A stretch of 64,000 nt of DNA, from NCBI RefSeq assembly GCF_012844345.1, contig NZ_CP051625.1, positions 434,001-498,000 on the forward strand, given 5' to 3'. The notes beneath the pieces are model-generated. The model ran no database searches. It was not told the origin of the DNA and worked only from the letters and a program-made list of their open reading frames with translations. Positions 24,048 to 30,012 of the stretch are shown piece by piece; the first letter of the stretch is position 1; each line of letters starts with the position of its first letter. Origin of the DNA: Pseudomonas sp. gcc21 (lineage in GTDB: Bacteria; Pseudomonadota; Gammaproteobacteria; Pseudomonadales; Pseudomonadaceae). The translations under genes and the position numbers were made by a program.

Positions 24048-24305
24048 GAAGGGCTCCAATATTATTCTTCTGAGACGTTCTGGACGTATGTCCAATATTG
24101 GTACTAGTTCTGCGTTTCGTCTGTGTCAAGTGCAACGCTCAAGGTTGCCCGTTTCAGGCTTGGCCTGCTGTGCTCTGGTTGGGCAATTTCGGCAGAGTTT
24201 CTTTTGCCAAGGCTGGTTAAGAAGGTCTCGCGTTGAATTGGCGGGCAGAGGTTGCTTCCTTGCCGGCCGATCAGCTAAAGTCGGGTCAATTCAATGGAGA
24301 TTCCC
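24048..24305. promoter_or_regulatory. Divergent promoter region with a TGGAC-N4-GTCCA operator-like palindrome
   Basis: TGGACGTATGTCCA (24081-24094) is a perfect inverted repeat with a 4-base centre, and it overlaps the perfect 10-bp palindrome CCAATATTGG (24092-24101). Such sites commonly bind TetR-type repressors; no regulator gene is adjacent. Facing right, TTGCTT (24252-24257) and TAAAGT (24276-24281) with an 18-base spacer are a plausible promoter for the attenuator leader that starts at 24306. Confidence 0.4.
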
Positions 24306-24437
24306 ATGTCCTTGCTGCAACGTGATCACCTCAAAGCTTCTGCCTGCGCCCTCCGCGCAGCGTTGGCGCGCGGGTGTTCGGTTGCAGCCGGCAAGTATTT
24401 CTATTTTGGGTATTGGTTCAGCCACTGGCGCGCCTGA
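24306..24437 (+). CDS. Aromatic-rich leader peptide 1 of the DAHP synthase gene (attenuator)
   Basis: A 43-residue peptide with GGAGA five bases before its ATG. The last third reads KYFYFGYWFSHWRA: Tyr at 31, 33 and 36, Phe at 32, 34 and 38, Trp at 37 and 41, eight aromatic residues in eleven. Such a cluster near the stop codon is the mark of ribosome-mediated attenuation. A hairpin at 24425-24454 overlaps the last codons and stop, and a strong intrinsic terminator follows at 24488. The downstream gene makes the first enzyme of aromatic amino acid synthesis. I know of no named leader with this sequence. The function is inferred from position and composition. Confidence 0.85.
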   Translation: MSLLQRDHLKASACALRAALARGCSVAAGKYFYFGYWFSHWRA

Positions 24438-24487
24438 TACCCCCAGGCGGCCAGATTTAACGGGTCGCGACCAAAGAATTTTCGAAA

Positions 24488-24517
24488 CCCCGGTCGGCAA
24501 CCCGACCGGGGTTTTTT
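24488..24517 (+). terminator. Attenuator terminator upstream of the DAHP synthase gene
   Basis: A perfect 10-bp stem CCCCGGTCGG / CCGACCGGGG with a CAAC loop is followed by six T residues. Three A residues before the stem extend it against the U-run. It lies 50 bases after the stop codon of leader peptide 1 and 160 bases before the structural gene. A competing GGTCGCGACC palindrome lies just upstream (24464-24473). Confidence 0.92.
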
Positions 24518-24543
24518 ATTTTCTATCGATTGAGGATATGACT

Positions 24544-24639
24544 ATGTACAGCTACCGCAGCCATGCTTCGTTTTGCTACCGCAACTGGCGATTTACCAGT
24601 GCTCTGCGCACACCAGACCTCGAACGAACACTACGATAG
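24544..24639 (+). CDS. Aromatic-rich leader peptide 2 ahead of the DAHP synthase gene
   Basis: A 31-residue peptide starting MYSYRSHASFCYRNWRF, with GAGG seven bases before the ATG. Tyr is at 2, 4 and 12, Phe at 10 and 17, Trp at 15: six aromatic residues in the first seventeen. It lies after the attenuator terminator and 39 bases before the DAHP synthase start. A short hairpin (GCGGC TTT GCCGC, 24647-24659) lies just after its stop, near the ribosome site of the structural gene, without a U-run. It could tune translation or a second termination step; this is inference. An in-frame ATG at 24538 is an alternative start. Confidence 0.7.
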   Translation: MYSYRSHASFCYRNWRFTSALRTPDLERTLR

Positions 24640-24678
24640 CGCCGCAGCGGCTTTGCCGCCCGGCTAAGGAAAGCATTC

Positions 24679-25761
24679 ATGAACGCCAATGTTTCAGCCC
24701 TGACTCCCAGTGATCTGGCTATAGCCACGCCGACTTCGCCAGTACTCCAGCGCACTGCACAAACGCTCCCCACTCCCGCCCAGCTGCGTGGCCGCCTGCC
24801 GCTTTCACCTGAGCTGGCCGTATCGATCCAACACCATCGCACTGCAATCCGCGCTGTGCTGAACGGCGAAGACGATCGTTTGCTGGTGGTGGTCGGCCCC
24901 TGTTCGCTACACGATCCGGACGCTGCCATTGAGTATGCCCAGCGTCTGGCTGAGCTGGATGATCAGGTAAGTGACCAACTGTTGCTGGTCATGCGCGCCT
25001 ATGTCGAAAAGCCGCGAACTACCATAGGGTGGAAAGGGTTGTTATACGACCCGCGTCTCGATGGCACCGGCGACATGGCCGAAGGGCTGGCGCTGTCGCG
25101 TCGCCTGATGCTGTCTATCACCGAGGCAGGCTTGCCCATCGCTACTGAACTGTTGCAGCCGATGGCTGCGGGTTACTTCGATGATCTCCTGGCTTGGGCT
25201 GCAATCGGGGCGCGAACCAGCGAGTCGCAGATACACCGGGAAATGGTCAGTGGGCTTGATCTGCCGGTGGGCTTCAAGAACGGCACGGATGGCAGCCTGG
25301 GCATCGCCTGCGATGCAATGCGCTCAGCTGAGCATGCGCACCAGCACTTTGGAATCAGTGAAAACGGGCAGCCAGCGTTGATTCAGACCCGGGGTAATCC
25401 GGATACGCATCTGGTGCTGCGTGGTGGCTATGCAGGACCAAATTACCATCCGGAAGCGATAGCGGCGGCGCGTACAGCCTTGGCTCGCCAAGGGATCGAC
25501 GCCGGCCTGGTGGTTGACTGCAGTCATGCCAACAGTGGTAAGGACCCGTTGCGCCAGCCCGCCGTGCTCGAGTCGGTTGTCGAGCAACGCCGGAGAGGCG
25601 AGCGATTACTCCGCGGCGTGATGCTCGAAGGGCACTTGTACGACGGCTGCCAGCCGCTGTCATCGCGGCTGGAGTACGGTGTATCGATTACCGATGGCTG
25701 CCTGGGCTGGAGCAAGACTGAAGCGGCCCTGATGCAAGCCGCCGAGCGGTTGCGAGCCTAG
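24679..25761 (+). CDS. 3-deoxy-7-phosphoheptulonate (DAHP) synthase, class I
   Basis: A 360-residue class I alpha DAHP synthase, which condenses phosphoenolpyruvate and erythrose 4-phosphate in the first step of the shikimate pathway. Visible blocks are VVVGPCSLHDPDAAIEYAQR, MRAYVEKPRTTIGWKGL, GARTSESQIHREMVSGL, GFKNGTDGSLGIACDAM and VDCSHANSGKDP, containing metal and PEP ligands. Length and N-terminal extension match the E. coli AroF/G/H type. Which amino acid inhibits it cannot be read safely. The upstream double leader suggests attenuation in response to aromatic amino acids. Confidence 0.94.
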   Translation: MNANVSALTPSDLAIATPTSPVLQRTAQTLPTPAQLRGRLPLSPELAVSIQHHRTAIRAVLNGEDDRLLVVVGPCSLHDPDAAIEYAQRLAELDDQVSDQLLLVMRAYVEKPRTTIGWKGLLYDPRLDGTGDMAEGLALSRRLMLSITEAGLPIATELLQPMAAGYFDDLLAWAAIGARTSESQIHREMVSGLDLPVGFKNGTDGSLGIACDAMRSAEHAHQHFGISENGQPALIQTRGNPDTHLVLRGGYAGPNYHPEAIAAARTALARQGIDAGLVVDCSHANSGKDPLRQPAVLESVVEQRRRGERLLRGVMLEGHLYDGCQPLSSRLEYGVSITDGCLGWSKTEAALMQAAERLRA

Positions 25762-29163: not shown

Positions 29164-29169
29164 CGCCGG

Positions 29170-29372
29170 CTCGCAGGAGAGAGAGGCTTCGAGCCTCCGC
29201 CGAAGGCGCAAACTCCCATAATCGCTCAGGCACACGTACTGCGAATTTTACCGGAGACAGACGATGTCTTCGTAACGCCAGCTGGAGAGAGGTTGTTCAG
29301 GCAACCCACCGAAGGGGCAAGCAGTCGATGACTGTGTAACTCTCAGGTACAACGGACAGGGGGAGAGGCGAC
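29170..29372 (+). promoter_or_regulatory. Tandem glycine riboswitch
   Basis: Two glycine aptamers in series. Aptamer 1 (about 29170-29265) contains GGAGAGAG, GCCGAAGGCGCAAACTCCC, TCGCTCAGGCAC and GGAGACAGA. Aptamer 2 (about 29279-29372) contains GGAGAGAGG, CACCGAAGGGGCAAGC, AACTCTCAGGTACA and CGGACAGGGGGAG. These are the conserved core segments of the glycine riboswitch family in the right order. The downstream gene is a UPF0126/glycine-transporter family protein, a known partner class. Whether glycine turns expression on or off is not decided here; no terminator is visible between aptamer 2 and the start codon, so control of translation is likely. Confidence 0.93.
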
Positions 29373-29391: not shown

Positions 29392-30012
29392 GTGCTTATC
29401 TACGTCTATCTGATCGCCATCACCGCCGAAGCCATGTCCGGCGCCCTTGCCGCAGGCCGGCGCAATATGGATATGTTTGGCGTTGCCTTCATCGCCTTTA
29501 TCACTGCATTAGGTGGCGGCACCGTCCGCGACATGTTGCTAGGTAACTATCCTGTTACCTGGACGCAGCACCCTATGTATATCTACCTGACCATCTCCGC
29601 CGGGCTGTTCACCATGGTCATTGCGCGCTTCATGCATCATCTGCATTCACTGTTTCTGGTGCTCGATGCCATGGGCCTGATTGCCTTTACAGTGATTGGT
29701 TGTAACGTAGCGCTGAGGTTAGGCTATCCCACGCCCGTCGTGATCATGGCCGGCATTACCACCGGTATATTTGGCGGCATTCTGCGGGATCTGTTGTGCA
29801 ACCGAACACCGATGGTGCTGCGCAAGGAGCTTTACGCTAGCGTTTCGCTGCTGGTGGCGCTTCTGCACCTTGGTCTCATACATCTGAACGTAAACGAAGA
29901 TATCAATCTGCTGGCTTCCTTCAGTGTCGGCCTTGCGCTGCGGTTGAGTGCGATTCGCTGGTCGCTCGCGTTGCCGGTATTTTCCTATGCGCCGGGGCGC
30001 TGGGGAGAGTAA
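29392..30012 (+). CDS. UPF0126 (YicG/TRIC-like) membrane protein under glycine riboswitch control
   Basis: A 206-residue inner-membrane protein with about seven helices and two internal repeats. Each repeat has the family motif: GGGTVRDMLLG near 43 and GGILRDLLCNR near 130. The Pfam family is named after glycine transport, and structures of relatives resemble TRIC cation channels. The riboswitch upstream supports a role in glycine uptake or efflux. The start is GTG with AGGAG six bases upstream. It converges with the T6SS lipase gene. Confidence 0.92.
   Translation: MLIYVYLIAITAEAMSGALAAGRRNMDMFGVAFIAFITALGGGTVRDMLLGNYPVTWTQHPMYIYLTISAGLFTMVIARFMHHLHSLFLVLDAMGLIAFTVIGCNVALRLGYPTPVVIMAGITTGIFGGILRDLLCNRTPMVLRKELYASVSLLVALLHLGLIHLNVNEDINLLASFSVGLALRLSAIRWSLALPVFSYAPGRWGE

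Follow-up and report, generated by a model that had tools for sequence, protein, structure and literature searches.

We analyzed a 64-kb stretch of the Pseudomonas sp. gcc21 genome, here called the window, with attention to aroF, a gene for a class I 3-deoxy-D-arabino-heptulosonate-7-phosphate (DAHP) synthase. Positions 24306–24521, ahead of this gene, very probably form a ribosome-mediated transcription attenuator that activates it when charged tyrosine (Tyr, Y), phenylalanine (Phe, F), or tryptophan (Trp, W) tRNA is scarce. The element is likely a six-segment switch of the his/trp type that reads the three amino acids together; we infer its dependence on tRNA charging. The sequence and its comparison with relatives show a leader open reading frame (ORF), conserved aromatic codons, a terminator-like stem, and a downstream gene, as well as complementarity for two competing helix sets, 1:2, 3:4, and 5:6 versus 2:3 and 4:5. 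Attenuators of this kind are known; what is unusual is the three-amino-acid cluster, which a second leader accompanies here. The RNA has already been catalogued as something else.

The leader and terminator ahead of aroF

Along the window, a promoter-like element is followed by leader 1, a terminator, leader 2, and the class I DAHP synthase gene. The original prediction had placed two aromatic-rich leaders and a terminator before a DAHP synthase, and all of these are present (24306–24437, 24544–24639, and 24484–24515; gene 24679–25761). The gene product, the first enzyme of the aromatic pathway, matches TIGR00034 aroFGH with 431 bits (cut-off 173) and also PF00793. The features of the attenuator and of aroF are as follows.

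24252..24281, plus strand: promoter-like TTGCTT-18-TAAAGT, the leader's putative promoter (seen in similar form in the closest of 12 aligned relatives, weaker in others)
24296..24299, plus strand: Shine-Dalgarno (SD) sequence of leader 1, GGAG (sequence)
24306..24437, plus strand: leader peptide 1 ORF, 43 residues, ending YFYFGYWFSHWRA (ORF call, conserved tail, chance test)
24395..24512, plus strand: match to Rfam RF00627 "P15", 99.8 bits (covariance model scan)
24408..24413, plus strand: attenuator segment 1, GGGUAU, the codons Gly-Tyr; partner, segment 2 (alignment; helix 1 paired in 95.4% of cells)
24426..24442, plus strand: attenuator segment 2, containing the leader 1 stop; AUACCC pairs with segment 1 and UGGCG.CGCCUG with segment 3 (duplex and alignment tests)
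24444..24453, plus strand: attenuator segment 3, CAGGCGGCCA; partner, segment 2 (antitermination) or 4 (termination) (duplex and alignment tests)
24462..24472, plus strand: attenuator segment 4, GGGUCGCGACC; partner, segment 3 or the terminator 5' arm (window duplex −16.6 kcal/mol)
24484..24515, plus strand: predicted intrinsic terminator stem-loop (segments 5 and 6), then a T-rich tail (terminator scan)
24666..24671, plus strand: SD sequence of aroF, AAGGAA (sequence)
24679..25761, plus strand: class I DAHP synthase gene, aroF/aroG/aroH family (profile matches)

A strict consensus scan for sigma-70 promoters found no site for the leader. Leader 1 (MSLLQRDHLKASACALRAALARGCSVAAGKYFYFGYWFSHWRA, stop TGA) occupies exactly 24306–24437, and its SD sequence is well spaced for the ATG at 24306; a longer ORF from the ATG at 24294 would enclose it. 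The tail, Y F Y F G Y W F S H W, carries eight aromatics in 11 residues, exactly as had been predicted. Such density is rare: across six frames of the whole window, only 6 of 92,158 twelve-residue stretches contain at least seven F, Y, or W, and all six overlap leader 1. A protein search with leader 1 returned no candidate sharing three 5-residue words. The hairpin proposed over the leader 1 stop is there (24408–24413 pairs with 24437–24442), and so is the strong intrinsic terminator, with 14 pairs, 9 of them G-C. Terminator-like sites in this 1 kb number 2, compared with 1.1 in shuffles, so it is the long G-C stem and not the count of sites that makes the terminator stand out.

The locus thus combines three features expected of an attenuator: a short leader ORF with an SD sequence before the gene, predicted to be translated; codons for the end products of the pathway clustered in that leader; and a predicted intrinsic terminator between leader and gene. 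The trpL, pheL, and hisL attenuators consist of a leader ORF with pathway-product codons, alternative helices, an intrinsic terminator, and a biosynthetic gene downstream. The window has all four, the helices and the terminator as predictions, and its proposed six-segment switch is closest to the his layout. Unlike these systems, the window's leader would sense three amino acids through a single cluster. It is also longer (38–48 residues in relatives), and another aromatic-rich leader comes after it.

Do relatives conserve the aromatic residues as codons? Among 118 unique leaders aligned on GYW (two AYW leaders, L053 and L054, were left out), the three codons preceding GYW specify F or Y in 111, 117, and 116. 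Both F/Y and T/C swaps occur there, which is the pattern expected from selection on aromatic residues. The leaders mostly use TTT and TAT; 30 long ORFs of the window prefer TTC over TTT (373 vs 159), with little difference between TAC (182) and TAT (175). An ATG with an SD sequence could be chosen for leader 1 in all 120 unique relatives, a count that is partly by construction, as starts were picked to have an SD sequence where possible.

Competing helices and the position of the ribosome

According to the proposed mechanism, when aromatic amino acids are ample, the ribosome would reach the stop codon within segment 2, and 3:4 would form. The 5:6 terminator would then halt transcription and leave the short P15 RNA. 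A ribosome stalled on the Tyr, Phe, or Trp codons would instead cover segment 1, and segment 2 would pair with segment 3. This would set segment 4 free to sequester the terminator's 5' arm, so that RNA polymerase would continue into aroF.

We evaluated these helices in an alignment (A1) of 61 of the 63 nonredundant leaders, with L052 and L055 left out. Helix 1:2 was paired in 95.4% of cells, 3:4 in 93.4%, and 5:6 in 99.1%; of the alternative helices, 2:3 was paired in 86.3% and, within 4:5, the short GGGU/ACCC stretch in 82.8%. Changes on both sides were seen in four pairs. Duplex energies were better than those of shuffled segments for 1:2, 2:3, 3:4, and 5:6, and similarly for 4:5 when the whole segment was used (−16.4 vs −10.9 kcal/mol shuffled, n = 68; −16.6 kcal/mol in the window). 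The cognate partner was better than a swapped one in 38 of 63 leaders for 1:2, 53 for 2:3, 40 for 3:4, 24 for 4:5 (short segments), and 57 for 5:6.

We then folded the leaders with a simulated ribosome that masks 12 nt, starting at the first base of the codon in the A site; all folding was thermodynamic rather than kinetic. In these folds, the terminator 5' arm is sequestered to 0.53–0.59 on average (n = 120) when the A site holds any codon of the stretch that begins with the third aromatic ahead of GYW and ends with the Phe following it. A ribosome placed 15 or 21 nt ahead of GYW gave 0.37–0.39, one placed at 30 nt gave 0.43, and one at the usual stop gave 0.33. The difference between aromatic codons and stop was positive in 60 of the 63 nonredundant leaders (mean +0.213), compared with +0.029 for shuffled spacers (largest of 15 replicates, +0.058). 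Averaged over seven positions in the aromatic region, it was positive in 57/63 and in 114/120 leaders. Furthermore, the energy needed to open the arm was greater at aromatic codons than at the stop in 60/63, with family values of 6.94 kcal/mol for an aromatic stall, 3.29 at the stop, 3.43 for an upstream stall, and 5.22 without a ribosome. The corresponding values in the window were 7.7, 4.4, 4.8, and 9.1. In silico, the alternative antiterminator pairing for which the original prediction proposed a folding check depends on ribosome position across the family, less cleanly in the window itself.

Several results weigh against attenuation as we describe it. Helix 4:5 shows no covariation, its cognate energy (−16.4) hardly differs from the swapped one (−16.0), and a test on overly short segments failed (−7.4 vs −8.9 shuffled). 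With the ribosome 60 nt before GYW, sequestration was 0.56, equal to the level at aromatic codons; together with the value at 30 nt, this means that a distant ribosome does not yield a low value. The window is one of the 3/63 exceptions in the mean-pairing test (−0.05), and only the opening-energy measure shows the effect there. Its ribosome-free fold contains 2:3 together with the terminator, not 1:2, and the ribosome-free opening energies (mean 5.2, window 9.1) do not predict clean termination without translation. Finally, the GGG-TAT-TGG-TTT-AGC core of the leader, which is the 5' arm of the first hairpin, is near-fixed in its nucleotides, and its conservation is partly that of RNA and not of peptide. 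Peptide and RNA are both conserved in leader 1.

The near-invariant core bears on another explanation, in which leader 1 is a TnaC-like arrest peptide, and a free aromatic amino acid or metabolite, not hungry codons, stalls the ribosome. The GYWFS core is indeed more constant than control codons alone would need, but this constancy coincides with a helix arm. The residues past it vary (H/Q/R, W/R/G, R/L, and A or an early stop), and other families use other orders, such as FFWWFGYGFYFSQSPGRP. We therefore regard an arrest peptide as unlikely. Ribosome-mediated attenuation that reads Tyr, Phe, and Trp, as originally predicted, is the best-supported reading. The aromatic cluster, whose absence from relatives was named there as grounds for refutation, is retained in them.

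P15 in the catalogue and in relatives

The core of the attenuator is the same RNA as Rfam family RF00627, P15: the model matches over its full length at 24395–24512 with 99.8 bits (gathering score, 70), and terminator and hairpins are the same. The original prediction knew of no named attenuator here. The RNA does have a name, contrary to that claim, which holds insofar as Rfam types P15 as a Pseudomonas small RNA (sRNA) gene and not as an attenuator. Unlike the element filed by Rfam, the one in the window holds the end of a leader ORF and precedes aroF. Read in the leader frame, however, the Rfam consensus is S-Y-Y-F-G-Y-W-L-S-H-W-R-A-stop; since it encodes the peptide tail, the conserved sRNA includes the end of the leader ORF and the terminator. 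The original P15 paper is reportedly Livny 2006.

Livny et al. (2008) suggested that P15 is perhaps a riboswitch, from its synteny with a thiamine pyrophosphate (TPP) riboswitch (PMC2527527). We consider it extremely improbable that P15 is an aptamer with the ORF as a by-product: no riboswitch family matches at the P15 site in the Rfam scan, the codon-wise F/Y swaps before GYW point to translation, and so does the aromatic tail, which persists in families with a different leader sequence.

Could P15 be primarily a trans-acting sRNA with its own terminator, placed before aroF only incidentally? Besides its Rfam type, a study of a P. fluorescens hfq mutant lends itself to this explanation, with P15 overexpressed, one of 4 changed among 87 noncoding RNAs, and its function described as "currently unknown" (PMC5627042). 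However, a DAHP synthase gene is adjacent in 54/54 checkable loci, the F/Y codons of the ORF vary in codon-like fashion, and an attenuator also leaves a short stable RNA. In Sinorhizobium, the terminated trpL leader rnTrpL is a stable sRNA that combines the roles of attenuator and trans-acting RNA (PMC7298713). A purely trans-acting P15 is, in our estimate, very unlikely. The Sinorhizobium system senses Trp only, unlike the three-aromatic cluster of the window.

An attenuator on aroF has been proposed before: a table in a prediction paper on Shewanella lists a Tyr-tRNA-sensing attenuator for aroF (PMC2659441, citing Camakaris 1980). This E. coli/Shewanella proposal, which we can liken to the window by its description, names only Tyr-tRNA and no leader peptide. 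In the openly licensed literature that our survey covered, we found no account of P15 or the Pseudomonas aroF leader as an aromatic attenuator, and the portions consulted of PMC4263517, PMC2375449, PMC2527527, PMC8297930, PMC5627042, PMC2864571, PMC2659441, and PMC7298713 assign it no such role. Neither PA1750 nor aroF occurs in the main text, as consulted, of the P. aeruginosa 3'-end map (PMC8297930).

As a separate observation on the P. aeruginosa DAHP synthase PA1750, PMC4263517 reports it with PrrF1 RNA bait in 3/15 low-iron samples versus 0/5 and 0/8 in the two controls, and with PrrH bait in 2/8 versus 1/9; these results were not marked significant. They hint weakly at RNA binding by this enzyme.

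The element recurs in relatives. RF00627 matched (E up to 0.001) in 55 of 116 relatives, 50 of them above the cut-off, and in 0/14 controls. A DAHP synthase gene lies downstream in 54 of the 55 loci, the contig ending first in the remaining one, and the aromatic tail is found in all 55 (one cut by a contig end). Similarly, in named genomes, 79 of the 80 best loci (out of 394) carry the GYW tail, and the one miss is a truncated contig; among these, Pseudomonas profundi (90%) and P. saliphila (88%) have the closest aroF genes. Because the named and unnamed sets share loci, 120 of the 134 are unique. A terminator-like stem was found by a lenient script in 120/120 of these, weak in L055.

Of the 19 members of the window's family that lack a P15 match, 18 have a DAHP synthase at the threshold used. 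In all four P15-less genus-mates whose DAHP synthase is 54–56% identical (L168–L171), the leader ends WAWFGFGFYYRQSSGRLCFS. Their different enzyme comes with a leader resembling that of another family, which suggests that the pair was possibly acquired by gene transfer. The other 17 DAHP synthase loci, mostly 46–50% identical, showed no equally dense cluster (best 5 vs 7 per 10 residues), with 15 of the 17 checkable (L186 has little upstream DNA, and L188 is a fragment). Likewise, the same scripts found neither leader nor terminator at the 46% identical paralogue in the window's own genome.

Distant aroF orthologues (L145–L163, 53–66% identical) have an aromatic leader, defined as at least four aromatics in 10 residues, in 18 of 19 cases, for example FFWWFGYGFYFSQSPGRP or YWFGYWFMTGVP. 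The one miss, L162, is the sole member of its family there, and the aromatic leader is found in three further families; the genes of the distant loci L147 and L151 also appear in the P15 set, as L052 and L055. Of the next three loci, only L164 has a cluster, a shorter one (GWWFTYF); L165 and L166 lack it. A terminator lies 46–71 nt past the leader stop in 17 of the 19 distant loci tested (the 18 and L164); none was found in L151 and L153.

The second leader

Between the terminator and aroF lies leader 2 (MYSYRSHASFCYRNWRFTSALRTPDLERTLR, stop TAG), with the following features.

24532..24536, plus strand: SD sequence of leader 2, GAGGA (sequence, relatives)
24544..24639, plus strand: leader peptide 2 ORF, 31 residues, rich in Y, W, and F, stop TAG (sequence, relatives)
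24586..24594, plus strand: near-invariant block TGG CGA TTT, Trp-Arg-Phe (codon counts in relatives)
24641..24664, plus strand: hairpin separating the leader 2 stop from the aroF SD sequence (minimum free energy fold of the window and family alignment)

The GAGGA suits the ATG at 24544 better than that at 24538. Leader 2 follows the terminator and so cannot act through it. It recurs in most relatives and probably gives aroF a second translation-dependent element, for control or for coupling. Because candidates were scored for aromatics, ATG, SD sequence, and the Trp-Arg-Phe (WRF) block, the following counts are partly by construction: a W-R/G-F/Y block is found in 106 of 112 unique candidates, with an SD sequence in all 106 and a TAG stop in 100 of them.

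Could leader 2 simply keep ribosomes on the mRNA from the terminator to aroF, as a translational-coupling or anti-Rho ORF that senses nothing? We give this explanation slightly less than an even chance. Its stop lies a median of 44 nt before the aroF ATG, with the hairpin between them in the family alignment. Moreover, in the window's group, codons ahead of the block are under no purifying selection site by site: the ratio of nonsynonymous to synonymous polymorphism (pN/pS) there is 1.02, compared with 0.88 for the whole ORF. The corresponding values in the fluorescens/putida group are 0.49 and 0.65. In the window's group, leader 2 has, judging from these comparisons, kept its aromatic content and nucleotide block, with a peptide that is not well conserved site by site.

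Folding points in the same direction, as no change in the accessibility of the aroF SD sequence was specific to aromatic codons, and we rejected translational attenuation through it. In the fluorescens/putida group, this sequence was unpaired at 0.42–0.45 with the ribosome anywhere in the ORF and at 0.49 at the stop. In the others, it was unpaired at 0.39 without a ribosome, at 0.41–0.45 with one at least 18 nt before the Trp codon, and at 0.49–0.51 from 12 nt before that codon onward, stop included, which is a modest rise (12 loci without the W-R/G-F/Y block or with too short a gap to aroF were dropped). A fixed geometry of the TnaC type was also rejected for leader 2: the Trp lies 17–36 codons from the end, with modes of 36 and 18–19, and TAG stops in 100/106.

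Other features are harder to reconcile with coupling only. F, Y, and W make up 39% of the leader 2 frame through the block versus 2% and 5% in the shifted frames (the ORFs having been partly chosen for aromatics). The block codons are near-fixed, CGA in 105/106 and TTT in 104/106, unlike the long ORFs of the window, which prefer CGC and TTC; the count took only ORFs with the block, so TGG is fixed by choice, and 6/112 lack it. The frequent TAG stop speaks in the same sense, and so does an H-type pseudoknot in some relatives.

This pseudoknot follows the block in fluorescens/putida-type Pseudomonas and in three sequences of one other family, 30 distinct sequences in all, picked by pattern (L001:1722–1786, L152:2608–2672 on the minus strand, L154:1400–1464, and 27 further sequences). 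Its stems S1 (18–25/41–48) and S2 (33–39/58–64, alignment A2) were paired in 93.3% of cells, compared with 17–53% for slid controls. Two pairs changed on both sides: 18:48 differs between families, and 21:45 is unpaired in 26/30. A control slid by +3 scored higher on the covariation measure (0.101 vs 0.047), and the covariation support is therefore modest. Rfam gave no match at the pseudoknot in the loci scanned, and the structure (model R1, S1/S2 after the TGGCGATTT block) is absent in the window (11.4 bits, E 1.8). The model matched one of 369 class genomes, G142, itself among the sequences used to build it.

It is also possible, though doubtful, that aroF in the Pseudomonadaceae is gated twice by aromatics, by leader 1/P15 at the terminator and by leader 2 at aroF translation. 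The pN/pS of about 1 in the window's group weakens this two-stage arrangement and strengthens coupling only.

The two leaders also resemble each other in part: the family form of leader 1 reads TGG TTT AGC CAC TGG CG (24414–24431) and that of leader 2 TGG CGA TTT AGC CA (24586–24598), so that the blocks TGGCG and TTTAGCCA are common to both in swapped order in many relatives, possibly by chance. The window departs from these forms, with TTC in leader 1 and TTTACCA in leader 2. Elsewhere in the window, tandem glycine riboswitch aptamers were found by Rfam at 29164–29369 on the plus strand (60.3 and 52.9 bits), directly 5' of a gene (29392–30012) that matches Pfam Gly_transporter, an ordinary pairing.

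With the proposed attenuator, a catalogued sRNA of Pseudomonas whose function was called unknown in 2017 (PMC5627042) acquires a role that can be tested. The attenuator points to control of pathway entry through one leader that reads all three aromatic products. In laboratory and production strains, the switch would offer a practical point at which to control aromatic compounds. Leader 2 and the pseudoknot of the relatives are a concrete, unexplained RNA element. If the two-stage arrangement is true, with its near-fixed rare codons in leader 2 and its H-type pseudoknot in some lineages, the family would check its aromatics at two stages with the help of an undescribed RNA element, and the first half of this checkpoint has been catalogued as an sRNA.

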